Part shown: positions 36,247 through 61,800 of the stretch, piece after piece
Numbering within the stretch: position 1 is the first letter of the stretch
Layout: every line of letters begins with the position of its first letter
NCBI RefSeq assembly: GCF_030253575.1
Contig: NC_080559.1
Location: 4,176,501 to 4,240,500 of the forward strand
Origin: Rhododendron vialii
Lineage: Eukaryota; Streptophyta; Magnoliopsida; Ericales; Ericaceae
Direction: 5' to 3'
DNA: 64,000 nt
Position numbers and translations under genes: made by a program
Notes under the pieces: model-generated
What the model was told of the DNA's origin: nothing
Database searches by the model: none
The model's input: only the letters and a program-made list of their open reading frames with translations

Positions 36247-39200
36247 ATGGCGGCAGAAAAAATTCTATCAACTATTGCAGCAAATGTTTTGTCGAGTTTG
36301 GGGTCTTATGCAATTCAACACATTGGTTTACCATGGGGTGTCAAAGGGGAGCTGAGAAAGATGGAGAACAATATCTTCACCATCAATAATGTTCTTCTAG
36401 ATGCAGAAGAGCAGCAGTTGAGAAACCGTACCGTGAAAGAATGGCTAGAAAGGCTCAAGCTCATACTTTACGATGCTGAGGACTTGTTGGATGAGGTTGC
36501 AACTGAGACCAAGAGAAGGCAAGTGGAAAGCTTGATGAGAAAGGTACACCACTTCTTTACAAGCTCAAATCCACTTGTATTTCGATATGTCGTGGGTCGT
36601 AAGATAAGGGATATTGGCAAGAGGTTTGATGAAAATGTTTTGCAGATGAATGCTTTTAAGTTTGTTGTGAAACTTGTAGAAAGGCCGATTCAGATCAATA
36701 GAAGGGAAGAAACCTCCTCCTTTGTGAATACTCTGACGGTTATTGGAAGAGATGCTGACAAAGAAAAATTAGTAAGGTTGTTATTGTCCTCTGGTGATGA
36801 GGACAATGTTGCCATCATTCCCATTAGGCCTGTCAATGGACCGGATCCGATCCGGATCCGATCCGAAAAATCCGATCCGGATCCGGATCCGAATCCGATA
36901 ACATCGATCCGATAATCCGATAATCCGGATCCGGTAATTCAATACGGATCCGGGTCGGATCCGGATCGGATCGGATTAAATCCGTTATCAATCCGAATCC
37001 GAACTTTATTTTTTTTTAAAATTTTAATTTTTTTTAAAAAAATAGTAAAATTTTTATTTTGAAAAAAAAAATGTTTAAGAAGTTGTATTTTTATTTTTAT
37101 TTTTTATTTTAAATTTTTTAAATTTTTTTTCCGAAAATAATTTTTTTTTGAAAAAAAAAATTGTATTTTTTTGAAAAAAATATTTTTTTTTGGCTAAAAT
37201 TTTTGAAGTAAAAAAAGTTTCCGGATCGGATTCGGATTTTCGGATCGGATCCGGATTTTTCGGATTCGGATCCGGATTTTCACTATCGGATTTGAGTCTT
37301 ATCGGATCCGGATCGGATTGTGTCTTATCGGATTCGGATCCGGATCCGGATCTGTCGGATCCGGATCGGATCCGGCCCATTGACAGGCCTAATTCCCATA
37401 GTGGGAATGGGAGGTTTGGGGAAGACCACACTTGCACAATTGGTATACAATGACGATAGGATTCAGAAACATTTCACTAAAAGATTGTGGGTTTGTATCT
37501 CTAATGACTTTGATGTCAGAAGAATCCTAATTCAGTTATTGCAAGCAGGTGGTTCCAGTGGGGACACTAGTTATAGTAACGAAGAATTTGAGCAGTTGCA
37601 AAACCGAGTTAGAATTCTATTACGCAAAGATAAGTTTATCCTTTTTCTGGACGACGTTTGGAATGAGGACCGTGTAGAGTGGAGAAAATTGGAGGATTTG
37701 TTGATAACACAAGCCAAAGGAAGTAGAATTGTTGTAACCACACGCAGTAAGATGGTTGCTTCAATTGTCAGAACCAGCACTGTTGATCCATATGAACTTA
37801 GAGGTCTTTCTAACAATGAATGCTTGGATATATTGGTGAAGTGGGCATTTAAAGAAGGGGATGAAAGTAAGAATCCGAACCTAGTCAACATCGCTAGAGA
37901 AATAGTGAAAAAGTGTGGAGGTGTACCTCTTGCAGCGAGGACCTTAGGGGCATTTTTGTTTTCAAAAACAAATGAACGGGATTGGTTGTTCGTGAGGGAC
38001 AATGAGATGTGGGCTATTGTACAAAAGAAGAATGATATCTTACCGATATTGAAGTTGAGTTATGACCAAATGCCGTCATATTTGAAACACTGCTTTGCAT
38101 ATTGTTCATTGTTTGAGAAAGATGAAATCATTTATGGAACAAAGTTGATTTATGCATGGATGGCCCTAGGGTTTGTCCAATGTGTAGACACAAAAGATGA
38201 ATTAGAAGATATAGGAGAAGGATATATTCTCGAGCTTGTAAGGAGGTCCTTTCTTGAACGAGATGATACAAGAATGCGCTCTTTAAATCCAGTTGAAGGA
38301 GGGAAGGCATACAAAATGCATGATCTTGTTCATGACCTTGCACAATATGTGGCAGGTAATGAATTCTTGACTTTTAAAGGGGCTATTACCGAGGCAATTC
38401 CTGAGACGGTTCGGCACGTATCATTTGATTTGAATACAAATTGTTCGTTTGCAAGACCTTTGATGGAAGCCGAGAAGTTGCGGACGATAGTCTACCCAAG
38501 CAATAGATGGCGCAGGTTTAGATCACCTGTTGAACCAGCAATCGCAAGTTTTAGAAGCTTACGTGTACTAGAAGGACTTGGCTTGCCAGAAAATATAGGG
38601 AAATTGAAGTTGTTAAGGTACATAAGCACAAATGCATCAGCCGATCTCCCAAACTCGCTTTGCATGCTATTAAACTTGCAGTACTTGGATCTCACGGAGT
38701 CATGTGTGTCTCGATTGCCTGAAGATTTCTGGAAACTAATTAGCCTGCGGTTTTTGGGCTTGAAGACAACATTGACGCGTCTGCCAAAAGATGGAATCGG
38801 TAGGTTAACTTCTCTCCGGACGTTGTACTTTTACGAGTGTGACAATTTGGAGTCTTTGGGTGAAGGGATAAAACATCTCTCTTGCCTTCGGGATTTGGCC
38901 TTAAAGAATTGTGATAAGCTGGTTTCATTGCCAGCTGGCTTTAGGCACCTCACTTCCCTCGAGCGTTTGGAAATTGGTTGGTGTGAAAGCCTTAATTTAT
39001 CGGAGGATGATGTTTTAAAGGGGCTTATAAGTCTTGAGAAATTGCAATTAAAGCATCTCCCGCGGTTGGTTAGTTTGCCCAAGGGGCTTCTGGATTCTGT
39101 TGCTGCACTCACTCATTTGGAAATTGGAGGCTGTGAGAACTTAACTTCACCATCAGAGTCCGTCCTCCCAAATCTCCTATCACTTCAATCACTTACAATA

Positions 39201-39365
39201 AGGTTTTGTGAAAAGGTTGCGTCCCTGCCAGAAGGGATGCAACGCCTCACTAAGCTACAGGATTTGGATATTACCGGGTGCAGTCTCAACACCGGGAGAT
39301 ATAGTGAAGGAGGAGAGTATTGGCCGAAGATCGCGAACGTACCTAATATTAAACGTCATTATTGA
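36247..39365 (+). pseudogene. CC-NB-ARC-LRR immune receptor (NLR1), interrupted by a hAT element
   Basis: Coding sequence at 36247-36824 resumes at 37400. Leaving out the 567-bp element and one 8-bp target duplication, the frame is open for 847 codons. An Rx-type coiled coil covers about residues 1-190 (start MAAEKILSTI; DAEDLLDEVATE is the EDVID-like region). Then come P-loop VGMGGLGKTT (about 194-203), kinase-2 LFLDDVW (about 274-280), RNBS-B GSRIVVTTRSKM, CGGVPLAARTLG (about 365), CFAYCSLF, MHDLVHDLAQYVAG (about 497) and leucine-rich repeats from about 560 to the end. Such RGA-type receptors detect pathogen effectors in the cytoplasm. The insertion lies just before the P-loop, so the present reading frame stops at 36915 after 222 codons, giving little more than the coiled coil. 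A spliced-out element would restore function; this is untested. Confidence 0.9.
36825..37391. mobile_element. 567-bp non-autonomous hAT element, copy 1 (in NLR1)
   Basis: Termini taggcctgtcaatgg and ccattgacaggccta are perfect inverted repeats, extended by ggatccg-rich sequence. The 8-bp target duplication is attcccat (36817-36824 and 37392-37399). Both subterminal regions are packed with cggatccg/ggatccgg repeats in both orientations; the centre (about 37005-37215) is almost pure A/T runs. No transposase. Copy 2 at 60343-60909 has the same length and, by eye, the same sequence. Confidence 0.95.
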
Positions 39366-39516
39366 TCACAGGTATATTATCTGAGTTCTTTGTAATCCTG
39401 CGCCATATACCGACAAGATTTTGCACGCTCATAGATTTATGGTTTTCAGTTTGGAGAGCAAAAAGATTTGGCGTAATGCTCTCTCTCTCTCACATACACA
39501 GACACATTAATGCTGA
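39366..39516. other. 3' flank of NLR1
   Basis: Likely 3' UTR. A short CT tract is at 39479-39490. Confidence 0.4.
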
Positions 39517-39781
39517 GAGCATCTCTAGCCTTTACTCAAAATTTTGCTCAAATTTGAGTTAAATGTTTCATTTGGTATCAATCACTCCAATAGACAAACT
39601 CTAATCAGAGCAAAATTTGAGTAAAAGGTTGGTCTAATTGTAGAGTGTGAGAGGAAAACAAGCTTTCATTAATGGTATAATTTTTACTCAATTGAGTAAA
39701 AATTGAGTAAAAAGTTCATTAATGGCGTTCCTTCATAATTTGATTCTGAGTTTGTTAAAAGGGTAAGGCTTGGAGATGCTC
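39517..39781. mobile_element. MITE with GAGCATCTC termini downstream of NLR1
   Basis: 265 bp, left end gagcatctctagcctttact, right end aggcttggagatgctc. Internal caaatttgagtaaa themes face each other as an inverted repeat. Related to 34100-34332. Confidence 0.7.
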
Positions 39782-39825
39782 CAATGCAATTCTATTTGGT
39801 GTTAACTGGTTTGTAATACCTAAAA

Positions 39826-40505
39826 AGGGCAAACCCAATGCACGAGACTCCTGCCATTGCGAAGTCAGGGAAGGGTTGATATACGCAGCTTTACCCCCAC
39901 AAGCGGAGAGGCTGTTTCCGTGACGCAAGCCCGTGACCTCCTGGTCAGAGCATCCACAGTGGTATAATCAAAACCAAAAGGTTGCTATGGTTTGTAACAT
40001 TTGCTAAAAAAAGAGCTCGCATTGGAATAACCGAACTTAGTAATCTCTTAACAACTCTTTAAATTTTGGCCATTGGATAATCAAAACTAGCAATCTTTTG
40101 CCAATAATCAATTTAGTTGTCTCCACATTTTTTCAATCAAATACATCATCATTACACAAAAACCTCCACTGTTTTTTTTTTTTAAATTTTTTCCCGAAAA
40201 CTATTTTTTTTTTAAAATCAAAGTTTCAAAAAACTAATTTTCTTTTTCTAATAACCTATTTTTATTAATTTGAAAACTATTTTAAAAAATCTGTTTTCTA
40301 GTACGTCACAATTTCTAAATTTTTATAAATTGAAAGGGTAATGTGGCAAGTTTTGGTTATTCAATTTTGATTGTACTATTGTAGACCTCTACAGTGCTAA
40401 GCTTAGCAACCCCTTAAATAGATAACCAAAAGATAATGTGACAACTTTTGATTATCCACTTTTGATTATTCAACTGTGGATGCTCTCACAATGGAGCAAC
40501 TTCTC
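39826..40505 (-). mobile_element. Au-type SINE split by a MITE
   Basis: Read on the minus strand, the element shows gaccaggaggtcacgggctt (the B-box region of the tRNA-derived head), gggggtaaagctgcgtatat, aacccttccctgact and a tail end cattgggtttgccc, the order known for plant Au SINEs. The head is cut at 39947 and resumes at 40486-40505 (tcacaatggagcaac), with tca duplicated on both sides of the inserted MITE. Confidence 0.75.
39948..40485. mobile_element. 538-bp MITE with GAGCATCCACAG termini inside the SINE
   Basis: Left end gagcatccacagtggtataa, right end tcaactgtggatgctc, perfect for 12 bp and followed by tcaaaa/ttgatt complementarity. The 3-bp target duplication tca (39945-39947, 40486-40488) fits PIF/Harbinger. 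AT-rich and non-coding. Confidence 0.85.
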
Positions 40506-40599
40506 CTATTATTTTATATTTACAACACTTGAGTTTGAGGTCTTTTGAGGAACAAATATATATGAAGTAGCTGTATAATAAGACTAGTGAAATTCCTAT

Positions 40600-41077
40600 T
40601 GTTACGGCCTAACATTTTTTTTATTTAATTAATTTTACGAGCCACTTCTTAATTGGGTGTTGTGGTCGGATTCTAATTATTTATTTACGTGCACTATGGG
40701 CATAGTTGTTATTATTATAGTTTTGAGGGTATAAGTTTAATCAATTTTAGTAATTAGTTTAGTATCGTAATTAGATACTCTATTTTATTCGTACATTGTA
40801 TTTAGGGGAAACGTGTGTGAATGTGTAGTGTTATTAACTTACGAGCGATGATATATAAACATACATACATAAATACGGTGTTAGGGTTATTTTTTGGAGA
40901 ACATTGAGAAGAGTTCTGATTGTTTGAGAGCAGCCGTCAAACTTCAAAGAAGGGTTTTACTGGGGTTCTTTCAAGGTAATAATATACTCTCATCTCTCTC
41001 GTTTCTGTCATCCACCTCTTCTCATAGCAATAGGATGCATGGACTGATATTGGGTAAATTAATTAATTTGTATTTTG

Positions 41078-41114
<37 letters not shown>

Positions 41115-42512
41115 GTGTGCATGTGCTGTTGTGGTTCTTATACAGTAAGTGGATCCGAGTGTGCGGTGGTGCTTTGGGGGTGCGGGGTGATGATGTGCAC
41201 ATGCTGCCATGTTTGTGTGAGTGAGTTGGCACGTTGCTTTGATTTGGTGTTGTTGGGAGTTGGTGGTGTCGGAGATTAGAGAAGTAATGATATAATTCTT
41301 CATGTAGCAAGAGAGTTAAATGGGTGAGGTCGTGTGCTTATACAACTGATGTGTAGACTAAATAGTTGTGCTTGGGAGTTTGGGAATGGAGAACACTGTT
41401 AGTGAGTGAGTGAGTTAGCTTTAGGATTAGTTAATTGTAATTTTACATTAGTCGTAATTGCTTCAGTTAGTGATAATATTACTATATGATTCTTTGTTCA
41501 GGTTAGCTCGTTTTGCGCAATTTGAGTTGCATTACTTTTTGGCTCAAGTGAGTGGTTAAGCATGTTACGTATTTTCAAATTTTCCCGTGTCCCTTAAATT
41601 ATTGTTTAGAAAATTTTATGATTAGAATTGGAAACCCGTAACTGTTTATTTGGTTACTTAAACCGGCATGCGGTAAAACATTTGGTGAAATTCTTTATTA
41701 TTCTGATAATCTTTTTGGTGAGAACTTTGTGAATATTGTTAGGAACGTATTTTGGAAAGTCGAGGGAAATTAATCCTCACGTATCCTCAACGGCTTTCTT
41801 TTGCTGGATCGTTCTTGTGGAAAAGTTCCACGGGCTACCTACTCGTGGTAACTCTAAGATACGATATTGGATTCAATTATGAGACATTTATTCACTGGCA
41901 TTTGGTTCTATCGATATTGATTGTGGTTCCCCATTGTTGTTGGAGATTGGTTTGTGATCACCATTGAGATTTATTGGTAAATGATTTATGGCTTTATTTG
42001 TTGGTTTGATGCATACCTTTGCATGCCAAAATATGTTAACTGTACATGATAATCTATTTTTAGCCATGTTTTAGAACTGTATTATTATACATGCTTTACT
42101 ACTCACTGAGCTCGTCAGCTGACGGATTTATTCCAACTTATTTTTCAGGCAAATTGGAAAGTTAGGCAAGAACTCTAGTGGCATCTTGGGAATTTCATTT
42201 GTTGACCTCCTTAGGGTGTCTCATCCTTTTATTTTAATAATCGCTTCCGCATTTGAAACATTTGTCAAATAATAGATTCTTTTTTATTATTGTTGGATCA
42301 CTGGATGTTGGTTGGTTTATGAGATGTTTGTGCCTCATGCTTTTTGTTAAACTTAAATGGTTGAAGTTGTTTTTAATAAAAAAAAAAAAAGTGGTTGGCT
42401 GTTTAGTAGTTCTTTGATTTGGAATTTAATTAAATTTCTTTTTAGGCCGCATGTTCTACGAGTTTTGGTCTTGTGGTTCATGACCGGTCACTTCTCGTTT
42501 TGGGGTGTGACA
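40600..42512 (+). mobile_element. Solo LTR (1,913 bp)
   Basis: Starts tgttacggcc and ends ggggtgtgaca, with the TG...CA termini of an LTR, and is flanked by the perfect 5-bp duplication cctat (40595-40599 and 42513-42517). No internal retrotransposon region or second LTR is present, so it is the product of recombination between two LTRs. A GA microsatellite (41079-41111) lies inside. Strand is given as that of the written TG...CA order only. Confidence 0.88.
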
Positions 42513-42517
42513 CCTAT

Positions 42518-43920
42518 TCTGCTACCAACCCAATAATCAAGCAATAATATGAACGAAGAATAAATGATGGACACCGGATATACGTGAAAAATTCCAAACG
42601 GGTAAAAACCACGGGAAGGAATCAAACACTATAAAACATTGTATAGTTACAAGCAGTCTTATCCTATGATTTGAATCCTCACAATTGCCCTAAGACCTAC
42701 TTGCCGAATCCACGTTCACTACATCCAGTATTTGATTGTCGTTGCCTCGAATCCTCAAGCCTTCCAAAAACCTTCGAAAATCCACCGAAGTACAAAACTC
42801 TGAATATGTTGAGATAAAAAAGACGTGAGCACCTCTGGGAGTTTGAATGATGCTTCAATCGTCCGCCAAACGGATTGCCACTCCCAGATTCAAGCTAGAC
42901 ATGCTTCTCGTTTTTGAAAACCCAAGGCTGCTCAATGTTTTGAGTCTTTTGACTACTGTATTTCGTTCGTCATCACTCGCTGAAAAGAGAAAGCCAATAT
43001 TTATTGATTCATCTCTTGACCGAAGACCCACGTTTCTTTTTTCTTTTCCCGCTGCTGCTGCATTTTTTCGTTACCCAAGCAGCCAATGAAAGACTGCTAT
43101 ATATAGTAGGGATAACAAAATAAAACTCTCTCTTGTTTTTGACTGATGACTAAACCATCCAGCAGCTTTCGATTGATTGCCGACTTATATAGCGATTGAT
43201 CGGGTTGCATTGATCTTTCTTCACAGTATGATTATTGTCTTTTTTCTCACTCATTCTCAATTACAAATATATGACTTCTTCCACTTTATTCGTATACAGA
43301 CCCGCTACAGTTAAAAAATATAAAAAGAATTTACAACTCAATAAATAATGGGATACAAGGAAAAATGTGTTTTGTCAATGGAATTGACAACCAAAAATAA
43401 TGCCGCTTTTTGGAGCTAACTAGAATCCTTCATAGCAAGGATTCTCTAGATATATAAGGATCCCAAATAAAATTTCTCTTTCCTACTTCCTATAGACTTT
43501 CCCCTTTAATTTCACAAGCCCCTTTCTAGCTAAAGCTCTCACATTTTGGCGGAAGTTGATTTTCAAACCTCTTCATTTGAAATACACATCTACCAAAACA
43601 CGAACCTTTAATATGAAGAAAATAATAAACATAGATACGATGGGACATAATATTCTGCTTACACTTAAAATACAAAACAACACTAATGCATCATGTGAAC
43701 ACCGTTATAATTGGTGATCACCTTTGCTGATCAAAATCTACGCATTAATTTAGTTTTTGGTTCATCTACTTTCCTAATTTGGCTGTCCTTTTACACATAG
43801 TCCTATTTTTCACAGGTTGCCGATATGAATTGCTCGCTATCTTATGTCTGTTCTGCCCTCCCTTTATTTGTAGTGGAGCTTGAGTCCTCTGGCTTCCTTG
43901 CGCTTGGTGTTGTGTTGGTG
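42518..43920. other. Intergenic, no gene recognised
   Basis: Short frames only. The start (aagaataaatgatggacacc, gtgaaaaattccaaacgg) looks like dispersed repeat sequence but I cannot name it. Confidence 0.4.
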
Positions 43921-43925
43921 CTCGC

Positions 43926-45881
43926 TGTAGACACCCTATTTTGGACTGTCCAGACCAACTTATTTACGGTCTTTTGATTCCCCAATGATGATTATGGTCA
44001 AGAACACCCCGAGGTTGATGGAGTGTTTGAGCTCTAAGCGTCCTGAACCTCGTTCAAACCTTCGTCAAGCCCTGCCCAGACCCTTCAAGCCAGAACCAAA
44101 TGGCCTCAGCAAAACTATACTTGCTTACGCCAGTATTATGCAGGCGTGTGCCGGTCAACTGCCACGTGTCAGTCATCGATCGTTGACTCAGTTCTCACCA
44201 GCGCACGCGGGTAAATCTTCGGTGTACGCTAGTCAAACCCGGTCAAATATCACTATTCAACCATGTGCTTGAGACTTTTGTGGCCACCCTGACATAGGCT
44301 ACAGTTTCCCTGATGATTATACTCTGCAGAGACGTTCCCCTCTCTCTCCTACATCCCCCATCACCTAGTCCCATGCATTTAATGCATGGGAGGCTCCCTC
44401 CTTTACTAAACCAGCCCTCAACTAGCTGGTTACTGGCCCTCTCTCAGCCTCTCTTTGCCTATAAATACCCCCCTTGCATTTATATGCAAGGGGTTCACAA
44501 GGTTACCCTCTTTAAGAGCTTTAAAGCCTTCATTTGCCTTTTGTTAGTCTCTTTGCTTCCTCTCTCTCCCTTCATTGAAAGAGAAAGCAAGCAGCCCCCT
44601 TCCCCCTCTCTATATACCACCCACACTCATATACTCATCATCCATCTCCCAAAAGATCAAGTTCAAAGTTCAAGTCTCCTGTCAACCTCCCAAAACCAAA
44701 GGTATACCACCTTTGCGGCCCTTTCTGTTCTGAGCCCCGAGGGGAGCTAGTGAGGCCCAGGATGGTAATCAATACCAGGCCTGGCCTCAAGCTGGCAAAA
44801 TATTGACAGCCGTATGAGATGAACAATGGCGCACGCCAGTACGAACAAGCCGTACGCCGGTAATGGCTGTATGTGCACCACTGGCGTGGGGATCATTGAT
44901 CGTCAATCTTTCAGTTTTCTTCCATCTTATCACCTTTATGCATGCTAAGAACCAGTTTATTGCTTTTTGTATCATAGAATTGTATAGTTACTTATCTGTT
45001 ATTTCTGCTTTAAAAGGTCTCTGGGATCCTTCTGGTCATAATCCAGAGCCCAGACCATGCAAAGCCAAGCACAGACCAAGTTGTGTAACTGGCGTACGGG
45101 GTCTCTGGGCCAGCGTACGACAGTTCCAAAGAAGTCCAGTGGCTGGCCCTTGCATGTTAACTAGTTCCGGCCTCTATCTACTTCCCCACACTGTTTATGG
45201 GGCGTTCTATTCATTTCGTTGCTCTAAAAGTCATCTCTGCTGCCTGTAACTATATTTATTCTGCCATATTAACTGCGTGGTTTGTCCTGGGTGTGCACTG
45301 GTCCTTCCAAAGTCCAGAGGGTTGAGAAACAGGAGCTGTGAGTTTAGATTTACCGGCGCACGCCAATATACCGGTGGCACACGCAAATCGTCTCTGCATG
45401 TAGTGACCTGGCCAGTGCATACAACTTCCTCTTGCGTGCCTCATTCTGGGACAGCGTATTCCAGTTTATTTAAAATGCTCACAGGTGCTTGTTCTCAATC
45501 TATTATACTTGTTTAGATCAATCATACGTCATACATTGTCACATAAATGCAATTTGTTACAGTTTTAATCCCCTTTAACTGCTCCCCCGCCCTAATTGGC
45601 TAAAGAAAGTGATTAATGAGAGAAAAATGCAAATATTTTACAAAATACCCGAGTAGAGACCGATCTTCGGATTGGGCAAGAGGGGGTGCCATAAATGTAA
45701 TACCCCTAATCTTTAATTATGTTTTAAATTAATTATGTGATGTGTTTTGGACTTAATTAGCTAGCTAAATGAAATTGGAGCATAAGTTGGCATGTGGCAT
45801 GCATACACTCAATAATTTTTCCTAACCTAGCAAAACAAAACAAGTCCTCTACGTCCTTTTTCTTTGTTCTTATCAAAACGT

Positions 45882-45912
<31 letters not shown>

Positions 45913-47820
45913 AAAACAGAAACGGCAGGAGGAAGAAAAAAAGGAGAAAAAGAAGGGAAAATTTGGGGAAACCTAGGGTTGATCTTGGTTGACTTTGATT
46001 GAAGTTCCAACTTGGTAAATCATGTTCTTCACACTTGAATTTATATTTCTTGACTTGAATATCATGCTTTACTTGCTGAATTCGTGCTCTAGATGTTTGG
46101 TTTAAGTTGAATTGGAGTTTTGGGGTTGAACTCTTAAAAAACTCAAGAACCTAACTTGAAATTCCTTGGATTGGATGTTTAAAATTGTTTTGGTGCATGA
46201 ATTTGATGTTTTTGGAGTAACCCTTCTATATTTATGAGATTGAGCATGATTATTGAGGTTTTGATGTGAGTTAGAAGTAGTTTGGATGGGTTTAATGGTT
46301 GAAAATCGCATGAGGAACAGGCTGCGTTTTTCTGGAAAAATCTGCAGAATTGAAATCTTGAATCTGTCCTGATTTTGGGGAATTTTTTTGAGGCAGTTCC
46401 TAAACTCCAAAAATTATGAAATTTTTATTGAGAGTTCCTCTATGAGTCCTTTATCTATGGTAAAAATTTCGGGATCTGAATCAAATTATTAAATTCTGTA
46501 GAAATTCGTAACCTCGCAGCGCGCAGTTTCGGACTGTGCTGTCTGCACAGACACTTGTTGGGGAAACGGTCATAATTTTGAGCTCAGGCGATGAAATTGC
46601 GATCCGATTTCTGATTTTGAAACTAGATTCATAGACCTAAAAAAATGCATGAAGATTGTATCTTAATTATTTCCGTGCAAAGTCAGTTTTTGCGTTAAAG
46701 TTTATGGAACTGCAGTTTCTGAGATTATTTTCTTGGGCTAGCTATCTAATCTCATATTCTTACCATAGGACCTTATGTTCATTAAAAATAGGCTTGCTTG
46801 ACATCCTCTAATCATGTTTTGTTGCCTAATTGTCTTAGAGGTTCGGGTAACACGTGGATACGAGGTGAGTGATTAATACCCAAAACACATGGGTTGTTAT
46901 AAGCTTTACGCTTCAATGATGTTTTATAATTTAATATGAACTCCATGGAATATCAATGGAAGGTGGACATGTTTTATATCTATTAATGGCATCCTCCCAC
47001 GTCCCAGCTTGCTAGGGGACACGTGCTAAAAGGCTAGCAAGACATGGCTAATAAATTGGATAACGAAAGACGTCTTAACTTATCCACTACCGGGGACGCC
47101 TGGTAGACATGAAATGAATAGAGGATGTGCATTACTATGCTATGTTGTTATGAGAAATGATTTCGTTTTTAAATGGTTTTATCATTGTCCATGGAAAGCA
47201 TGTGAATTGCGTATTAATCATTCATACGAGCTTTGGCTTATGAATTTTCCCACCTTTCAGGCAACGGGACGTAGAGTGGAGGCATATAGCTTTCTTTTGG
47301 ACGTGCTATGTAGATATGGACTTGTAGATAGCTCTTGGTAAACACTTTTTTTGACATGTAAACGTGCACAGCTCTGGGTGGTTTGCAATGTAGAGATCCT
47401 TGTAAAGACTTCTACTTTTGGCATATGTAATAAAATGGGGTTTTGCTTCCGCTATTCATACTTGTGTCCCTTTTAGTCATTTGCTAATAAGATGTCTAAC
47501 TTTGAAATGGCCTTAGTGATTGAATCACTGGCGCTTTGTTGTGACTAGAGCCTTTAGGGGCGGGCTAGGGTCGTGACAATAAAACCCTTCCCCTCTCGTA
47601 ACCTGGCTCCCGAACCTCAGATATCAAAGGTGACGACGGACCAGTCTACGCCTTTTTCAAAATCAAACAACGTAGCAAAACGTTTCAAGTTCGGTTCCTT
47701 GGGTATTTCATTGCTAAAACCCGAGTGGCGACTCTGAATCGAAACGTTTCGTCACGCTTTTCCAAAAGGGCGCACCTGATTTTTAAAACGAAATTGAAAA
47801 TTTTGGGACGTGTGCCCACA
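43926..47820 (+). mobile_element. Tat/Ogre-like solo LTR, split by a nested LTR
   Basis: Starts tgtagacaccctattttgg and ends gggacgtgtgcccaca, with flanks ctcgc (43921-43925) and ctcgt (47821-47825), a 4-of-5 match to a target duplication. The 3' part (aacctggctcccgaacctc, acgcctttttcaaaatcaaa, cccgagtggcgactctgaat) is characteristic of the R/U5 part of Tat-lineage Ty3/gypsy LTRs in plants. Removing the nested 1,883-bp LTR and its duplication leaves about 2.0 kb. No gag-pol is nearby, so it is a solo LTR. Confidence 0.7.
45696..47578 (+). mobile_element. Solo LTR (1,883 bp) nested in the Tat-like LTR
   Basis: Starts tgtaatacccctaatc and ends tagggtcgtgaca; flanked by the perfect 5-bp duplication ataaa (45691-45695 and 47579-47583). 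The element interrupts the outer LTR. A GA tract at 45882-45909 and an exon-like gag leader are absent/present respectively only as low-complexity sequence; no coding region is seen. Confidence 0.87.
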
Positions 47821-48960
47821 CTCGTGTGCTGGGTGACCGTATTGCAGTTCTGTGTTTTCCATTCTCATGATAGTTGGTCGATTCGTTTGGTGGTACATGC
47901 ACCAAGTCTTAAGTCCCATTTAATTGGGATCAGCTACTTGATTTTTTTCTCCAATGTCCCAGCCCAAGGCATCATGTTCCGTAATACTCCAAAATGCCTA
48001 GGGCCTTCTATTGTGACATGTTTAATACCTGTTCTACAAGATAGCAGTTGTTGTTTTTTTGCTTTGTTTTGTGGACGTACTTATTTGTTTGGTGGACTAT
48101 CTGTAATGCAACGCTTATATGTGCTCTCATTTTCTCTGTATGAGTGATCCTATGGAATTGGTTATTTCGCTTTGTTTGGTGAACTACGGATTATAATACT
48201 CTTATGTAATTGAATTGGTTATTTCGCTTTTATTTTCTTTGAATGAATTGCTCATATTTTGCTGAAGGGCCCATGATCTGCTGTGAATGGACCCTTCAGA
48301 AGCGTGGTTCTCTTTGGGAACTATTCCATTAACTTGCCAAGTTACGTTTGATTTTGTTGGTTAGCTTTGTGTTGTTAACTTTGCTTCGGAAAATAAATTT
48401 GCAGGTTGTGCGTGCTCGAATCATGTAGTTTAGTTTATGTTCTCGATTGTGGTTTCATTTCGTGTTTATTTTGTTATTCTGGTCATATAACTTTCCTTGT
48501 GCAATAAAAGCAAATAAATTTAGCTTATTTCCCTCTGTTTTCTTTCAATCTTTTACTTGTTCATCGCAATCCACCTAGTGAATTCATGCTCCCAACAAAT
48601 CATCTTAAGATTCAACGACGTATTGGGATTACAAGCATAGACTTTTATCGACGCGAGCTAAAACTTATATTAATTCCTGCTATGTGTTTTGCTTAGGAAT
48701 ACTAAAATGATAAAAGCGAAAAATTGAGGATATTTTGGTGAATATTTGTACCGTAAAATGTAGGTTGTCTCCGTAATTTACCAGAAAAATATTATACGAG
48801 TCTGTCAAGTGTCAACTGAAACTCTCAAGTTCTCGACTACTAAAGCTCTTCTAATGTTTTATCAAGTAGTGGGTATGCTCAATGGTTGAGCTTGTTCAGC
48901 TCCTCCCGCCCCAGAATAGACGTAGTAATTGGCCATGCCAGAAAACCATTTTGTTTGCAA
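47821..48960. other. Intergenic, no gene recognised
   Basis: Contains at about 47895-48005 a relative of the dispersed repeat at 30945-31110. T-rich frames only. Confidence 0.45.
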
Positions 48961-49175: not shown

Positions 49176-49249
49176 TGATAACGTTTTTTTGCCTATTATC
49201 TTATTTCTTTTTACAGCATGCAATGAATGCTATTAAAAAATAAACAATA

Positions 49250-49521: not shown

Positions 49522-52500
49522 TAGCTTTTTCTGAACGTTATGTTATCTTAGCCAATTTTAGCTTCTTCTTTTTTTTTTAAATGCTACAAATGCCAATATA
49601 CTAGCATTTTCATACAGAAAATCTACATTCCATTCAACACTAAAGTACATCCAAACGCGATACAATTTCAATGTAAGATAAATAATTCAATCGAATTCAT
49701 TACAATAGCTTGAAGAATAATTTTCCAGCACAAACTACATTTAAGAGTCAGACTAATTACACTATAAAAAAACACTAATGTAATCTCTCTTTCCAGAAAA
49801 TGTAATCCTAAACTAGGCAGCCATCTCATTCAAGTACCCCAATTCTTCGCCCATGGAGATGTTCTTTATTTGAAGCTTACTTTTTTGCCAAGTTTATACC
49901 CTTTTGCTCCCAACGGCGAACACATAACCTATAAATATAGAACTATTCAAAGTAACCCAACAAATATAGTAAAAATTATTAACGAGAAAAACAACTTTAA
50001 AGCAACATAATGTTGGCAGTTAGAAAAAGAAGAATATGATGGATAATTGTCAGCAAGAATCAAGAACAATCTTAGAAGTAGCCATACCATGACAAATTGG
50101 CGAACGACATATACCAATCCGTGCACGATTGTGGAACATAACTATTCATGTGAGAAAACTATGTAAAAAGCTAGAACTTTAACCACACGTATTTAACTAC
50201 CAGCCGAGCCACTTAGCTATTCAAACACATACATTATTGATCAATGGTGGCAGACAATGAGCATAGTGCTCCTGCAAAAGATAAATGACACCGGTATCAC
50301 TAATCATCCCCATTAACCAAATGGATTAGAGTTTTGTGCGAGTGTCGACATACATACAGTGGGCGAGAGCAGTTCACATTAATCTATTGGGATATAGTCA
50401 TTCACGATCATCAATGTATCCACATTACACTAGTACCCTCTAAGTTGCATTTGAACTACCAATTTATCAAGGAATTTTCTTATCAATTAAGGTTTAGCAG
50501 AAAAATGGAAAGTGGATGAACTTATGACAAAACAAAGAAAAGGGATAATAGCTAGGTATAATAATAGTAGAGCATTCATAGGAATCTCCACTAAACCACT
50601 CATAACTCAAAGCTATCAAAAGTATAATTTGTTCATTTTGTTATAGTGTTTGCAAAATATATGGTAGAGAAAGACACTGAAAGAACAAGGGAAAGAAAGG
50701 TAAAAGAGACTGGCGCCCAAAATTTGGTTGAACGCTATGGGAGAAAGAGTTTTTCTTCTACTTATCCCCGTGTCTCTTTGCAATTTCAGCACACTTCAGC
50801 AACAACTAAGGCTGTGTGAGCTAAGAAAATTGGCTCACGCATGATTGATGGCTAGTATAATTTTCGCACCAATTTCTTTTGGTGTTATTGCAGCAGTGAA
50901 AAATATAGAATAGCAAGTGTCCCTCCTAAGTCTTATTTGTGTCCCAAAGCCTAGTGAATTTTTTCACTTGTGTACGTAATTATATACCTTTATGAGTGTT
51001 AATTAATCTCCCTAGAACTAGATTCTAAGTGTCTGTTTCTCAACACATGCTCTATGATCCAATGTCCCAAATTATTTCAGTAACAACTTTAGAGAATATA
51101 CCTCATTATTTCAGTAACAACTTTAGAGAATATACATCCTCATTATTTCAGTAACTTCTCATTGTGTAGAGAATTCACCAAGTAGTTTCTATTCCGGCAA
51201 TTAGAAACCTAAAAGCAAGATTCACTCAGATGCAAGAATATTAAATTATCGCTCCATATCAAATGCTAAAATATATAATTGTTTACCGAGGGACAAACAA
51301 AGGGTGTAGCTGGTGTTTCTTCATTATTGCCAGATTGTGAACCTAAAATGTTCAAAAAAAAATTAAAAACAAACAAACAAAACATTAGTCTAAGTTGTCC
51401 GCATAAAACACAAATAAAAAAGGAGCCATGGCCTTGCAATCTTTTGAGCAACATGTGTGTACAAACAAAAGTAAGCAGCCAAGTCATCTGCAGGGAACAA
51501 ATGTAGCAATACATATGTTTAAGCTTATACAAAGTTACAACTGCTGATAACTTTGTGTAGTTTAGGCAACCTTAGTATAATGGAGTTTCTACATCTTCTA
51601 ATGATTTTCCGAACTACTCGTCTCTCCTTTCTTGAAGTGGTTCAACATGCTCTCTTCCTGATATGAAGTGGTTCAATTGTTCTCCATTCAAACTAAAATG
51701 CAAAGTGAACACTAGTTTAGTGGGCACAGCAATATCATTCATTACATACAAAAGACAAAATTTTCTTGCATAGTAGTATCCGTATCCTATCGTATTTCTG
51801 TCCTGTATCGGCATCCATGCTTCAGAGCAAGCCGCTTATTGCTGGAAATCCCAGAAATGCAGCAGAAGATAATTTTGCTTCCTATTTTGTTTATAAAGAT
51901 CTCCAATTTCACTGATGAATCTAGTGTTGAAGTGGATACTACCAGCGAAAGAAGTGGATACAACTCTTGGTTGAGGTGTGACTATTCGTGAGTTGCCCCA
52001 ACCAGGGGGACCATTGTGGGCAGATACATGGATTTAAACTAATCTAGTTTCTACTTATTGAACATTGCTATCTCGAACTCTTTCGGCTTTGGCTGACACA
52101 ACTCAGCGGTTGTTTTTGCTACCTTTGCACCATAAGAGGGGAAAGAGAGGGAAAGAGCACAGTTTGCACATCAAACGGCTGAGAGTAATTTCAGTGGGAG
52201 GCTCAAAAAATCTTCTTGGTCCCTAATATCAGCCGAGAGAGACTGACTTGATGAGAGGTGAGGCCAACTGCCCCACAAAGAAGACTAATCTCAACAATGA
52301 TAACAAAACAGTATATAGTGAAAAAAAAACAATTGCACTGCTAGGCTTTGGGATTTCATCTTCCTTTTGGGGTGTTTTTGTTGGTTAGTGACAACATGGA
52401 CCACAATGGTTAAGATAATGGTATTATTTCGACAAATATGTAGCCAGTAACTAACATTGAATGCTCTAAAACATTGCATTTCAGTAGTTCATCTCAATAT

Positions 52501-53416
52501 CAAGCAAACTAACCCATTTTCAGCATTTAACGTCAAACTTCGAGACTTAAGTCTATAGTTCTAGCTCTCTTTACAATTTTAGCAGTCAGCTCATTTCAGT
52601 TCAGCAACTATGGTATATTAAGCAACAAATATCATATTCCAGCTCTTTATCTTAACAAAAATACTATTTTCCAGCACTCAATAGCAAATTCACTTCCTAC
52701 ATGTAATTCATAGTTCGGGATTGCAGTATCAGCACACCACAACAACAAATATGAATTGAATAAATTTGACTTAGTCTATTGAGGTCAGAGTATCCAACCT
52801 TGACATAAACAAATGAAAAAAAAAAAAACCTGAAGTCTATCCTTCCTATACACCTCAATCACCCACAAAGTTGCATAAATCTAAATTTTCAACATAACCA
52901 TGCAAACACAAAACTCCAATGAACCTCGTTCTTGACACTACATTTGCAATTGTAACTATTTTCTGGTCTTTCATGAAGAATGTTAGACCGGGCCAACAAA
53001 AACTTCGCGTAAAGAATGCAAATCTACTGTAATGAATGTCAGAATAAAGAATGCAATTCTGTACAAGGCTCCTACCTATAAAGAGTAATAGTATGAGAGA
53101 CCTAGTAGGTAGGACACGTTAGCCCTACTTTTTCTTCATATGGAGATGCTGAACCAAACCCCAAACTAGTATAGACTAATATTTGAAGTTTGCATAATGA
53201 CAATTTGCATCGCTAAATTATTTCACAAATGTAATCTTAAATAATGCTACTAACCTCCCTACAGCTAAATTCAAAGTGCTCGTTTCTCAACACATGTCCA
53301 CTACAACCCAATATCCCAAATTGATCTGTTCTAGACTTGCATAGGTGGGAAAGAGGAAGGGAACATCAAGGTCCATCACCAAAGGCATAATAAACAGATA
53401 CAACAGCGTAGTATAC
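49522..53416. other. AT-rich interior without recognised coding exons
   Basis: Only short frames. A tattatttcagtaacaacttt phrase is repeated around 51074-51150. The C-terminal exons expected for the phosphatase upstream on the minus strand were looked for and not found. Confidence 0.45.
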
Positions 53417-54229
53417 CTGCCGGCTCTCATGATTTCCTCTTAGAATAGTAATTCGTTGGGGATAGCGCACTTTCAGGCCCACTAGAAGCTGAACACATGA
53501 ACTGATCAAATATCAGAACAGTTACACCACATTAAACAGTAGGATGCGAATTCAATTGAAAAAGTTTCCTAAGTAACTCTCACTCAGAAACACAGAGATC
53601 ATTATTTGTTCTTATCTGTAACGCAGCCTATTAATTTCCCAGGTCGGGCAGTAAGCCTATCACAATTGCTATCCTCACGATATGTAGGAAAAGAAAGAAT
53701 CATGCACTTACCGTTACGGTTTCAACTGAATAATAGCCACGATACGACCATATGAAGGGACAATAAGAAAGCATTACCTAAGACCCTTACTACTCAAAAC
53801 ATACCATATAAGAGTAAAGAAAAAGCTTGATCAAGTGTTTATGCAATTATACTAAACTTGTTCATAAAAGCTTGATCAAAAGCAAATGAAGTAAATGAGG
53901 ATGTGAGATAGCCACACGTACTTTTTATCATTTCTCAAATTTTCTCCTCAAGAACAAAGAATGCGGCTGTCTCATATCCTCATAATGTTGGGCCTAACAT
54001 GCATCCTCTTGAGTTACAATGGAGATGGAATTAGCGCCATTTTCAAAATTTCCAAGCTTAATTAAACCACTCAAAGATTAAGCATTATCAAAAGTATCTA
54101 TGTTGAAACATCTATGGCAACAGAGTGCTTGTACAAGAATAATACCTTCCCTCCAATTCGAAAAAGCTCAGCAAGATCATGGAATTGCCCATGAATATCA
54201 CCAATATTTGGTACAGGGGTTTTGACGGG
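53417..54229 (-). pseudogene. PP2A-type protein phosphatase catalytic subunit, exon remnants
   Basis: Three exons of a serine/threonine phosphatase in correct order on the minus strand. Exon a (54146-54229) reads [20 protein letters not shown] and ELFRIGGK, containing the metal-binding GDIHG. Exon b (53712-about 53783) keeps RGYYSVETVT, but the preceding GDYVDR block is damaged by deletion. Exon c (53417-53488) reads [20 protein letters not shown] followed by ESRQ, the GNHE motif. Splice sites of a and c are canonical. The N-terminal exon and everything after ESRQ are missing, and PVP replaces the usual PVTICGD context. It cannot encode an enzyme. It lies inside the candidate CACTA element, which suggests captured gene pieces. 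Confidence 0.8.
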
Positions 54230-54772
54230 CTACATGGAGAAGGGAAAAATAAAAAACTACTTAGAATGGACATAAAGTGAGCCCGTATGTAAACTCACAT
54301 GTTATAGACCTTTAAAATGCAGATGCAGACACCAAAACAAAGCCCCCCTAACCAGCCCCCCTCAAACCCCAAAAGTAAAACAGAGAAAATGGGAGATACA
54401 AAGAATAATTGAAGCGAACCCCACTAACCTGCCTTAAACTATTTTTGAAGCTATTTTCGAAATCAAGGGTTTCACTATTTTTGAAGCTTGGCTTCTGAAA
54501 CTCGGTCCCTATTGAGTTGATTTGAAGGCTGTTGGACTTGATTCGAGCCTATTCGCGTCCTAATCTTCTTGTTTTCAGTACGAAATCAAGTGGGTCACAT
54601 AGTTTAAACCCTAGATATAGTCCTACCAGGTTTTCCGAGATCTAATCTGCTCGTGACAAGGGTTTTCGAAAGTAGATCTACTCCTACCACACAGTCGGGT
54701 GTGAGACCTGTTTGGACCAGATTTTTGCAAAATAAAGAAAGAACAAACCTTTGAGTGGAACATAGAACGAAA

Positions 54773-54949
54773 TCAGGACGAAGTCTTGATTGGGCGGCCC
54801 TTCTGGATGTGCTTCATGAGGTCGGTCGAGAATCCCGCTATCTTGTTGCGAAGGAGCTTCGACGGGATAATGGCCACTTCCTCGAGGATCTTTTTGGGGG
54901 CTTGATATATATCTTCAAGGTCGGCTACACTGGGGTCTTCCGACTTCAT
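54773..54949 (-). pseudogene. Chimeric 58-codon frame with a ribosomal protein eS17 fragment
   Basis: The frame starts [18 protein letters not shown] and continues [20 protein letters not shown], then [13 protein letters not shown]. The latter segment is plainly the middle of cytosolic ribosomal protein eS17 (about 33 residues, 54798-54900). Sequence before and after is unrelated to eS17, and the frame ends RPIKTSS. The start codon lies next to a 141-bp GA microsatellite. It is a fragment, not a functional ribosomal gene; whether the chimeric frame is expressed is unknown. Confidence 0.78.
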
Positions 54950-54951
54950 TG

Positions 54952-55097
<146 letters not shown>

Positions 55098-55357
55098 AAG
55101 GAGATTACTAATCGCCCCCCTCCGTGTCAGGCCCCCCTCCTGACACGGCTCCCCTTTTCCCCTTTTACCCCTACCCCTCTCTCTCTCTCTCACTGCACCC
55201 CCTCTCTCTCTTTCTCTCTTTTTTTGTAAAATTTTAAATACTAATAATTTTTTTTCACGTATTTTTTTAATAAATTATATATTTTTGAAATCTACTCAAC
55301 GAAACCTATCAAACGAGCCTAATATTGATAGTGTAATAATGTAAAACGAAAAAATTA

Positions 55358-55593
55358 CTCACTCCGTCCCATTTTTATTGTCCATTTTCGTTTTTCGTGC
55401 CGTTCTTTCAACGCTTATATCTCCCAATCTATAATGTTTTTTATAATTTTGAAAACTTTGTATTATAGATCTAATCAAGAACTATCAAACAAGATCCATA
55501 TTGCATATTTTTTGAGATTCATATTGGAAGATATAAGCGTTGAAAGAACGTCACGAAAAACGAAAATGGACAATAAAAATGGGACGGAGGGAG
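55358..55593. mobile_element. Stowaway MITE, palindromic, inside the large foldback
   Basis: 236 bp, TA-flanked, ends ctcactccgtcccattttt and aaaatgggacggagggag. The arms pair over almost the full length (cgttctttcaacgcttatat with atataagcgttgaaagaacg). It interrupts the left arm of the surrounding element at a site where the right arm is uninterrupted. Confidence 0.9.
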
Positions 55594-55619
55594 TATATTT
55601 TTGTGATAGTTTAATATTA

Positions 55620-55965
55620 AGAGGGCGTTCGGCTAATTAAGCCATTTGGCTTATTTTTTTGTATTTATTCAAATTTTTTTTTGCATTTGTTAGTTTATAA
55701 TCAATTTTTTGAGAATTATTGCTTCGTCATGATGAGAGGAATCTAAAAAGTAAAAAATTACGATCCAAACCTAATTTTTTTGAATAAAGACAAAAATAAG
55801 CCAATAAGCCAATTTTTTCGTCTTTATTTAAAAAAATGAATTTTGATTGTAATTTTTTACTTTTTAGATTCCTCTTGTTATGAAAAAGCAATAATCCCCA
55901 AAAAATTGACCAAAAACTAACAAATGCGAAAAAAATTTGAACAAAGACATTAAAATAAAATAAAA
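55620..55965. mobile_element. Foldback element inside the large palindrome
   Basis: The left arm (gcatttgttagtttataatc, ttattgcttcgtcatgatga, gaggaatctaaaaagtaaaa) is mirrored by the right arm (ttttactttttagattcctc, aaaagcaataatcc, aaaaactaacaaatgc). The centre near 55800 carries ataagccaataagccaa. Non-coding. Confidence 0.7.
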
Positions 55966-57520
55966 AATTTGCTTCTAACCATCGGCACCAGAGGATCATT
56001 GGATGGATTTTATAATGTTGGGACTTGTCCGCATCAAGGTACAACGTTGTACTACATACATTCAATATGATTGGCTTCGAGTTGTCTCACTCACTTGCCG
56101 TTGAGCTACCATCCAGTTCCATTCGCAGCGCGCAAACATATAACTATTGGCTATGTTAATGGAAATCACTTCGTGCAAGTTTTCCTATATCCTTATTATC
56201 CTCCTGTACCACCCATTTTCATATGATGGAGGCGAAATGCATCAAATGAAGCACACGGTTGGACTCATCCTTATGAAGCACGCATCCAATTGTGGTATGA
56301 AGTAATGCGGATAGAACCGCCGGGACGAAAAAAACAAAAGACAAAAAATAAAAATAAAGAGATATTATACTGTGCCCAAAAAATCATTTAATTTAAACAC
56401 ATTATTTCATATTCAATATTAGACTTGTTTGATAGGTTTCGTTGAATAGATTTCAAATATATAAAATTTATTTAAAAAAATACGTGATTTCAACATCTTC
56501 GAACAGTTTATATATTAAAAAGTATGGTTAAAAAATTAAGTGTTTCAAATTTCAATCCGTTTGAACTGGTGGAAAGATTTTATTTTTCTGATCATTTTAT
56601 CCTAAATAGTCATAATTAAATTTTGACTCTAGAACTCTCGTTGATTAACCCTAAGAGATATTTAATTCTACGACTTTCTTAGAATTAATCAACGAGAGCA
56701 CTATAGTCAAAATTTAATTATGACCATCTAATATAAAATGATCAGAAAACTAAAATTTTTTCACCGGTTCAAACGGATTGAAATTTACAATACTTAATTT
56801 TTCAACTTTTTTAGACAGTTTAAACTATCATAAAAATATTTTTTTTTCCGTTTTACATTATTTCACTATCAATATTAGGCTCGTTTGATAGGTTTCGTTG
56901 AGTATATTTCAAAAATATATAATTTATTTAAAAAAATAAGTGAAAAAAAAGTTATTAATATTTACAATTTTATAAAAAATAAAATAAGTGAGATAGAGAA
57001 ATGGGTGAGAGAGAGAATGCAAGTGGATGGGGTAAAATGGGGAATTCCCCACGCCCGGTGTCAGACCCCCCCTGACACGGGGGGTGATTAACAGCACTCG
57101 TTTTGAAACGAGAAGATGCAGAGTGGGGAAGAGGAATGGAGAGAGAGAGAGGAGTGGGTTGGATAAATTGGGTGGAAGCGGATCAAAAAAAAAAAAAGGG
57201 TGGAACGCTATAATAGAATTAATGAAACGCTGTAGTTTCACTTTTGCTTCTCTCCGTGTCTTTCAAGAGCAGGAACGCTATTATTGTCTCTCTACAATAG
57301 CATTTATAAAAAAACGCTATTAAATTATGTTATGAAAACCTCTATTTGTTGGGCTACATAATCCTTTACTAACGAAAAACAAAAGATCGATATCCGAACA
57401 ATTTAAATGACGAAATTGTATTCTAACATGTTCTGCAGGATCTGAAAATGGGAAGATGTTAGATATCATTTTGGCTCCGTACTCCACAGGTAACGGGTTT
57501 CTTTTTCTTGGAAGAGACTG

Positions 57521-57770
57521 TGTTTGGTTTGTAATTTTGAGATTTATTTTTGAGATAAAAAAGTTCTATAGATTTACATATTTTTTGGTCTTTAGAAAAC
57601 TTTTTTAATATTTTGACAAACTTTTTTATTTTTTAAATAGATGTACGTTATGTACATCCAAAAAGTATAAAAAAAGTATTAAAAAAATTGACAAAAAATC
57701 ACTAAAAACTAAAAAACAACGAAATAGTCAAAAGTTTTGGAGAGATTAATTCTGAGATAAGAACCAAACA
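57521..57770. mobile_element. MITE with TGTTTGGTT termini
   Basis: Left end tgtttggtttgtaattttga, right end attctgagataagaaccaaaca. The arms pair (agataaaaaag, tttttagt themes) around a centre near 57640. 250 bp, non-coding. Confidence 0.6.
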
Positions 57771-58818
57771 AAGTGAATCACTTTCACTCACCCAAACTCC
57801 AAATGTATACCCAAAACCCCTCTTCAATTAGTTTCTCTCTCAAATGCTTATTAGAATGGCTTATTTTACAGAGGTATTTATAGAGCGGAAGGGAAAATTA
57901 CAAAAGATTTCCAAAAGTCAGTATGGAAGCTTTGCTTCATCTCTTTGGAATTAAGCCACACTCAATTTCCACGTGATGAAATCTCCAACACATTCTTCAT
58001 CGTCTTTAGGTGCTTAGGTATCCACCGTAAGTCTTTCATCTTTCGAAGACGAACCAAGCAATAACCTGTACATTTATTTTCCAAAGCGAAAAAGGTAAAA
58101 AGAGAGCCGATGAACCAAATTAACCAAAGAGAAATTGGAAGGCTATGTATAAGTATTCTTAAAAGAGAACCGCACCCCTGAAAACGCAAGCGAAATCCAG
58201 AAAATTCGGAAACTGATGGTAACTCAGAGAGCTCAATCTCGTCTCTAAAAGCCTGGTCAAAAAATGATCTCTGTAATGAAACAAGTTTAGGATATCAAAA
58301 AAATTATGGGTTAGTGATGTATTTTTAACTAAATTAGGGCTTTAACATCAATTTGTTTTCCCCGCAGAGTGGCATCATGCCTAGCTCATTTAGTCTTCCT
58401 TCACAGATAAAATGGGCATACTTAAAATTAACTGTGATAGCAAGAGTAAGCTTGCGGACTTCAACCCTTCCCCAAACCCCGTATACACAAAAACTTTGTG
58501 CACTAGGTTCGCCCTTTAGTAACTCTAATAGCAAAGTTATAAGATTCTAGATCACACGTGGGGTGGTAGCTTGGTTTTGATTACAAGCGTAGACCTAGTA
58601 GAGTGACATTTTTCCTGTCTAATAATTGAGAATTTTTTATGGAATACGACCTGCACTATTAGCAGTAAATATTTTGTTGCTCCCTATTCTAGCTCCTGAA
58701 TTGCAGAACTCTTTTCATTTGATTTGGCAACGCGACCTTCGATGATTCTTCTACAAGCATTCTTTTATTTATGTGGATATGTATATATGCGAAACAGACT
58801 TTTCACATTAGGAATGAA
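57771..58818. other. 3' flank of NLR2, no gene recognised
   Basis: Short frames only; may include the NLR2 3' UTR near 58700-58818. Confidence 0.45.
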
Positions 58819-61800
58819 TCAATGGAAGCATTTTGACAAGGCAGGTAGAGAAGGTACCTTCATATGATAACTCTGTTGGATACAACTGTCAGGGACATGC
58901 GCAATCTTAGGCCAATCCTCTCCTATCCCTTCTTCACATCTTCTACTCAAGTGGAAGCAGTCCACAATACGCAAACGCCGTAGTGCAGCAAGACGTTGCA
59001 TCCCTTGTGGTAGCGACATACGATTATGACAATGGCGGATTTCAAGTACTTGAAGTGATCCGAGATTCGGGAGGACGGACTCTGATAAGGTTGTCAAATT
59101 CTTACAAAACGAGAGATGTAAGTGATTCAGTGTATCAGCAGAATCATTAAGCCCCTTGGGCAAACTCACCAACTTAGGGAGACCATTTAGTACTAACTTC
59201 TTCAGGCTTTTCAGCCCTTTCAAATCGTACTCTTCCGAGAGTTCAAGATTTTGACAGTAACGAATTTCTAAATGCTTGAGAGACGTGAGGTGTTTAACGC
59301 CAGACAGCAAAGAAGTCAGTTTTGGACAGCCCCATATGACCAATTCCCGGAGGCAAGTGAGGTTTTGTATACCATCACCCAAAGACCTCAATTCACCGTT
59401 AACAAGCAGTAGAAATATCCGAAGAGAAGTTAATCCACCAATCCCTTTCTCTGGTAAACATGTCAAGTTAGATGATAAGCACAAGAACCGAAGGTTAATT
59501 AGGTTGCCAAAATCTTCAGGCAGTTGATCAAGTGTTGATCCGTAGAGATCCAAATACTGCAAGTTTAATAGCTTGCAAAGAGATCTAGGGAGTTTTTCAA
59601 CGTCAGAACAAGTGAGGTACCTTAAATGGTCCAAATTTCCTATCTCCTTGGGCAAGACATGTATATCCCTATTTCTAGGGTAGAAGTTTAAACCTCTATG
59701 ACCGAAGTTCAACACTCGTAAGCATCTAAAACCTGGAATTGCTTCTTCGACAGATGATCCAAAATTGGGCCCTGTCTCACTTGGTAAAAACATGGTCCGC
59801 AACTTCTTTGCTTTGATCAAATGTTTTGGGAATTCGGTATATAGACTCGAATCAAATGACACATGCCGAACCCTCTCAGGAATTACCACAATATTTTCCC
59901 CTTTCACAGTCAATCGTTCATTACCAGCCACATATTGTGCAAGATCGTGAACAAGATCATGCATTTTATAGCGATCGTGAGCAAGATCACTGTCAGGTTG
60001 AAGAAAGGACCTTCTTGCCAGCTCTTCTATGTACTCTTCACCTATATCTTCTAATTCTTCATCCTTGTCTGAGGACTGTATGAATCCATGGGCCATCCAA
60101 CCATATATTAACTCTTGTTTGAAAATTATCTGATCTTTCACAAATAACGAACAATAGGCAAAGCATTGTTTTAAGTACGAGGGCATTTGGTCATAACTCA
60201 ACCTGAGAATCGGTAGGATATCATTCTCATTTTTTACAAGAGACCAAATCTCATTGTTCCTCACAAAAAACCAATCACGATCATTTGTTTTCATGAACAA
60301 CATCGCTCCTAAGGTTCTTGCTGCAAGAGGTACACCTCCACATAGGCCTGTCAATGGACCGGATCCGATCCGGATCCGATCCGAAAAATCCGATCCGGAT
60401 CCGGATCCGAATCCGATAACATCGATCCGATAATCCGATAATCCGGATCCGGTAATTCAATACGGATCCGGGTCGGATCCGGATCGGATCGGATTAAATC
60501 CGTTATCAATCCGAATCCGAACTTTATTTTTTTTTAAAATTTTAATTTTTTTTAAAAAAATAGTAAAATTTTTATTTTGAAAAAAAAAATGTTTAAGAAG
60601 TTGTATTTTTATTTTTATTTTTTATTTTAAATTTTTTAAATTTTTTTTCCGAAAATAATTTTTTTTTGAAAAAAAAAATTGTATTTTTTTGAAAAAAATA
60701 TTTTTTTTTGGCTAAAATTTTTGAAGTAAAAAAAGTTTCCGGATCGGATTCGGATTTTCGGATCGGATCCGGATTTTTCGGATTCGGATCCGGATTTTCA
60801 CTATCGGATTTGAGTCTTATCGGATCCGGATCGGATTGTGTCTTATCGGATTCGGATCCGGATCCGGATCTGTCGGATCCGGATCGGATCCGGCCCATTG
60901 ACAGGCCTACCTCCACACTTCTTCACTATTTCTCTACCAATGTTAACTAGGTTCTGATGCTTATTCTCTTCTCCTTCTTCAAATGCCCATTTCACCAATA
61001 TACGTAAACAATCTTCATCTGAAAGACCTTCCAGCTCATATGGTTCCATGGTGCGGACAATTGAAGCAACCATTTTACTCCGCGTGGTTACCAGAATTCT
61101 GCTCCCACTCGCTCCCACAGCAAACAAATCTTGCAATTTTTTCCATTGTACGCGGTTCTCATTCCATACATCATCCAGAACGAGGAAAAACTTGTTGTCA
61201 CTTAACACTCGCCGAACACGAATTTGTAAATGCTCAATTCCTTCATTGTTGCAGCCATTGTCCCCTACCACTTCCAACAGTTTAATCAAGATTCTTTTCA
61301 TATCAAAATCATCAGAGACACAAACCCACATTTTTGTGCTAAAATGGTTTTGAATCCTATCATCGTTGTAAACCAGTTGTGCAAGTGTGGTTTTTCCTAG
61401 ACCCCCCATTCCCACTATGGGAATGATGTGAAAATTGTTATCATCACTAGAGGACAATAACAATTTTATTAAAGCTTCTTTGTCAGTATCTCTTCCGGTA
61501 ACCTCCGGAATATGCACAAGGGAGGAGGTATCATCCCTTCTTTTGATCTCAATTGGCCTTTCTGCTACTTTCACAACAAACTTAAAATCTCGCATCTCCG
61601 CAACAATCTCATCAAGCCTCTCGGCGATATCCTTAATGTTTCGACCCAAAACATAATGAAATGCCAGTGTATTTGAGCTTGTGAAGAAATAGCATACCTC
61701 TCTCACCATGCTCTTGTGAGTTTTCATTTGCCTTCTCAAAGTCTCGGTTGCGACTTCATCCAACAAGTCATCAGCATCGTAAAATACAAGTTTAAGCCTT

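Follow-up and report, generated by a model that had tools for sequence, protein, structure and literature searches.

How did two identical copies of a small non-coding element come to lie in two neighbouring, paralogous NLR genes? The question is raised by a 64,000-nucleotide stretch of the Rhododendron vialii genome (hereafter 'the window'), which corresponds to C3:4176501-4240500 in the genome that we searched (532,647,506 bp, 13 contigs). Copy 1 of this hAT-type MITE occupies window positions 36825..37391 and copy 2 positions 60343..60909, both on the plus strand, in direct orientation and spaced by 22,951 bp. As judged by base-by-base alignment, the copies, both 567 bp long, are identical at 567/567 positions with 0 mismatches, which bears out the equal length and identity claimed by the original prediction, as well as its claim that each copy has a target duplication of its own: perfect 8-bp repeats of ATTCCCAT flank copy 1 (36817..36824 and 37392..37399, plus strand), whereas a different sequence, CCTCCACA, equally perfect, flanks copy 2 (60335..60342 and 60910..60917, plus strand).

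To describe the family to which the pair belongs, we scored the best 40 of 639 candidates found in the genome, i.e. the most query-like ones and no random sample, comprising copies 1 and 2 of the window plus 38 more. These scored copies are 94-100% identical to the window copy; among the 38 others, 33 have perfect 8-bp target duplications, four match at 7/8 positions and one (L026) has a damaged end. Since the two 567-mers are identical, have separate 8-bp duplications and are accompanied by 33 such cases elsewhere, chance is ruled out, and the pair of insertions is confirmed as real. Exact matches to the 15-base end number 254 + 245 (499) genome-wide, while the same pattern read backwards yields 0 + 0; with ends merged by hand, at least 68 separate elements lie within the 110.5 Mb covered by the end positions listed. 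Terminal inverted repeats of hAT elements are short and of the TAGG/CAGG type, and the hAT target consensus is of the nTnnnnAn type. The element has 8-bp target duplications and TAGGCCTGTCAATGG, which is of the TAGG/CAGG type, inverted at both ends, followed inwards by repeats built on CCGGATCC and an A/T-rich centre. In 39 target sites, taken with no background control (L026 omitted; four sites one base out of register), we see a pyrimidine lean at positions 2-3 and a purine lean at 6-7, position 7 being A in 23/39 and position 2 being T in 14/39. Furthermore, the element is short, non-coding, devoid of transposase and present in many similar copies, all of which are MITE features, and the 567 bp fold strongly as a single DNA strand (z -18.5; 0/100 shuffles as good). 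The duplications, the ends and the MITE features support an ordinary family of several hundred non-autonomous hAT-type MITEs in the Rhododendron genome, in line with the original assignment, which had named a non-autonomous hAT element. The BniHAT families of Brassica nigra, as partially described in their source, are likewise high-copy hAT MITEs, although of a different host and likened here by description. The literature listings searched returned nothing on this 567-bp family.

Both insertions fall, as had been predicted, within the NB-ARC-coding part of paralogous NLR genes. NLR1 (36247..39365, plus strand) and NLR2 (58819..62000, minus strand) are CC-NB-ARC-LRR genes with Rx_N, NB-ARC, winged helix and LRR all present above the curated Pfam cut-offs; their proteins are 60% identical (dN 0.26, dS 0.76, ratio 0.34). 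The insertion sites are non-homologous: copy 1 lies directly ahead of the P-loop in NLR1, whereas the insertion point of copy 2 in NLR2 is the CGG|VPLAA motif. As both elements are on the plus strand and the genes on opposite strands, the elements are also opposite relative to gene direction. That the receptor frames are otherwise intact stands insofar as single open frames of 847 (NLR1) and 868 (NLR2) codons result once the flanks are joined with one target copy kept; with the inserts in place, however, translation from the start codon ends after 222 codons in NLR1 (stop at codon 223) and 385 in NLR2 (stop at codon 386). Since each insertion cuts the reading frame short, the alleles of NLR1 and NLR2 in this haplotype are probably null. 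In some Ds alleles, the element is spliced out as an intron. An open near-copy of NLR2 is still present in the same genome.

The comparison of the two genes also bears on the idea that a single insertion was copied along with an NLR gene as it duplicated. While the paralogy of NLR1 and NLR2 would suit such an origin, we regard it as scarcely credible: the sites and the orientation relative to the gene differ, the elements are 100% identical in genes that are only 60% identical, and the differing target duplications refute it.

Further evidence comes from empty sites. A genome search with the NLR2 flank, in which all 17/17 candidates were scored, recovered nine more genes of the same clade, all on C3, with eight of them, NLR1 included, at 4.21-4.33 Mb and one at 5.51 Mb. 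The closest duplicate of NLR2 (C3:4294300-4297800 of genome G000) differs by 46 mismatches over 3,377 aligned bases (98.6% identical) and has an open frame of equal length with the joined site and a single CCTCCACA, which is precisely the unoccupied site of copy 2. The element sequence was sought in this duplicate (C3:4294300-4297800) and none was found, and the offset between it and NLR2 shifts at the site by 575 bp, i.e. by the element plus one target copy. Set beside this, a search with the NLR1 flank (16/16 candidates scored) shows that the matches upstream and downstream of the copy 1 site meet in 9/9 other clade genes (7/9 judged by match positions and not by letters), whereas in NLR1 itself they are separated by 574 bp; across the NLR1 flank, its nearest relatives reach 94% identity. 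Because empty sites exist in clade genes of the same genome, both insertions are later than duplications within the cluster. Copies 1 and 2 are thus separate, precise and recent insertions, and the original claim of independent recent events holds, with different target duplications and with empty sites for both in one genome.

The cluster itself continues past the right end of the window: at C3:4.21-4.33 Mb, nine CNL genes of one clade stand in tandem within about 120 kb. Paired places near 4237/4296, 4241/4301 and 4254/4314 kb further suggest that about 59 kb was recently duplicated here.

Identical sequence occurring twice inside 24 kb is also what one would see if the assembly had placed one insert twice or contained chimeric reads. 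We consider an artefact of this kind highly improbable, as the two copies lie in different genes and each is flanked by a matched target duplication of its own, and the R. vialii haplotype A assembly, which is very probably the one searched, relied on HiFi reads and Hi-C according to the part of its description used here (PMC10338486).

How closely, then, are the two copies related to each other? They have in common a substitution at element position 308 which is present in 0/38 other scored copies (best 40 of 639), and among these best 40 each is most closely related to the other; with 40 of 639 candidates scored, a still closer copy elsewhere could have escaped notice. Genome-wide, the 23-mer around the variant occurs in three places, namely copy 1, copy 2 and one old copy on C1. 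The last (L059, C1:12103500-12104700) is about 86% identical to the element, has CTTCCCCC on both sides and carries the position-308 variant, so the shared variant is possibly retained ancestry. As regards age, 0 differences in 567 bp places divergence below about 0.53% (95%), an upper bound only. Were the copies as diverged as NLR2 and its duplicate, 7.7 differences would be expected against 0 seen (P ~4e-4, assuming like rates in element and gene). At a substitution rate of 6.5e-9 per site and year, the age bound for the pair is roughly 0.4 million years, which falls short of showing the currently active family that the original prediction had proposed.

We infer that a short-distance hop of a hAT MITE inside the tandem CC-NB-ARC-LRR cluster made the pair, and give this reading a probability of roughly 0.8. 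In such a hop, transposase from a full-length hAT element would act in trans and move one of the copies, or a neighbouring copy since lost, over about 23 kb. Transfer from replicated to unreplicated DNA would be the simplest route, with the donor copy kept. Movement of this kind is described in the sections consulted of several reports: hAT transposition is a cut-and-paste process that produces 8-bp duplications (PMC3260210), Ac/Ds tends toward linked sites (PMC5873905), and movement of Ac/Ds from replicated to unreplicated DNA is possible and yields an extra copy (PMC4270019); this Ac/Ds behaviour is also covered by PMC8225341. As far as the cited parts of PMC3260210 and PMC5873905 go, maize Ds, of the Ac group of hAT, resembles the element in being short and non-autonomous, in its 8-bp duplications and short TIRs and in being found in genes, and also in its layout with subterminal repeats, which in Ds bind transposase. 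Linked transposition, documented for Ds in the portion of PMC5873905 relied on here, would be a further likeness for the 567-bp element. The two differ in that the element ends in TAGGCCTGTCAATGG in place of the 11-bp Ac/Ds end, and in that its subterminal repeats are built on GGATCC.

The spacing of the pair is itself unusual for identical copies: when 40 labels were shuffled over 40 places, an identical pair arose within 23.5 kb in 53/20,000 shuffles. Against a short hop, a second identical pair among the best 40 of 639 (L010/L011) lies on two different chromosomes, pairs on the same chromosome among the 40 scored copies show no greater average likeness than other pairs (0.0206 vs 0.0195), and among the elements listed, two family pairs within 23.6 kb, the window pair included, are seen where about 1.0 is expected by chance. 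We also tried short hops as a general pattern on the 40 scored copies and, given L010/L011 and the averages just mentioned, saw no sign of it.

An alternative route to the same identity would be two independent insertions from elsewhere, made identical afterwards by gene conversion between neighbouring elements. Conversion between neighbouring repeats is generally established in NLR clusters, and the shared private variant would be expected under it too. Nonetheless we think it unlikely, as it would take two insertions and a conversion tract that spanned all 567 bases while sparing both target duplications, which, like the flanks, remain different; the single hop is preferred because it is simpler than two insertions plus conversion.

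The hop also bears on the choice of target. Since NLR coding sequence makes up roughly one fifth of the cluster, assuming about 2.6 kb per gene (a length tested for three), a second NLR gene could be struck by a local hop with no preference needed. The original prediction had gone further and suggested a preference for NLR clusters, which our results do not sustain. What speaks for such a preference, be it for NLR genes or for their clusters, is that NLR coding sequence makes up little of the genome and yet contains two of the 40 scored copies. These two hits, however, are sister copies in one tandem cluster and are therefore not independent evidence on target choice. Furthermore, tblastn with both NLR proteins, run on 2.5 kb of flank to either side, detected NLR sequence beside 0/38 other copies at E 1e-3 (best E 2.0), whereas the control (L060) was recovered at full length. 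The open reading frames flanking the copies numbered 262, of which 78 passed the filter and 46 were run against Pfam; among the matched families listed (25 of 41), NB-ARC appeared in the added control only, and the families included those of transposon genes, a sulfotransferase and others. Finally, 0/68 listed elements lie within 25 kb of an NB-ARC place, against 0.84 expected; this test is weak because 124 of 589 candidate places were scored, with the window's own cluster absent from them. With no support from the flanks, from the flanking frames or from the weak distance test, we reject NLR targeting as an explanation and consider such a preference very unlikely.

Which gene might have supplied the transposase? 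hAT genes are abundant: of 741 candidates for the hAT dimerisation domain, the 150 scored were all above the cut-off. On C1-C3, where 35 domains were scored, the shortest distance from a domain to one of the 68 listed elements is 29 kb; the eight on C3 lie beyond the part listed. The autonomous element with matching ends that the original prediction called for did not turn up among the genes fetched: TAGGCCTGTCAATGG-type ends were seen at 0/12 fetched hAT genes, which have other ends or none that we recognised, but two of these genes have ends related in style. L053, with a 696-codon hAT frame, has ends TAGGGGTGT... and an 8-bp target duplication, and its subterminal sequence is CCGGAT-like; L054, with a 740-codon hAT frame, has TAGGGCTGTCCACGGGTCGG about 1 kb past the frame together with repeated GGTCGGGTT-like sequence, while the 1.2 kb upstream of its frame showed no 5' end to match. 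The ends of both are unlike TAGGCCTGTCAATGG, the likeness being one of style only. The repeated subterminal motif is a different one in L053 and L054; divergence of such repeats may be rapid in this hAT group.

Taken as a whole, the locus offers an uncluttered natural example of recent insertion, twice over in one immune-gene cluster and with the empty sites in the same genome. It illustrates that elements of a small hAT family can disrupt individual NLR genes while, for at least one of these, an open and near-identical duplicate survives. Both insertion sites are ready markers for asking whether the family still moves. A more speculative consequence is that the pair could serve as a start for transposase-driven reshuffling of the recently duplicated NLR cluster, a role we consider very unlikely; if true, hAT elements would be a source of NLR copy-number change. 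Huang and Dooner reportedly described macrotransposition in 2008, in which paired Ac/Ds ends move the DNA between them. Paired Ac/Ds ends can also rearrange the intervening DNA by reversed-end transposition, as the pertinent passage of PMC4270019 has it. Since both target duplications are still matched, no such rearrangement has so far taken place between copies 1 and 2.

Several further features were seen in the window. Two methyltransferase-like stretches (1374-2164 and 5794-6595) are inverted to each other and 90% identical. A gene for exocyst subunit Sec15 (17102-19483, minus strand) has a single open frame of 794 codons, as identified with Pfam, and a glutaredoxin-domain protein with a GRXCR1/2-type C-terminal domain is encoded at 31762-32967 (minus strand). 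Finally, several inverted repeats at 55157-57044, beside a GA microsatellite at 54954-55092, are possibly other foldback elements.
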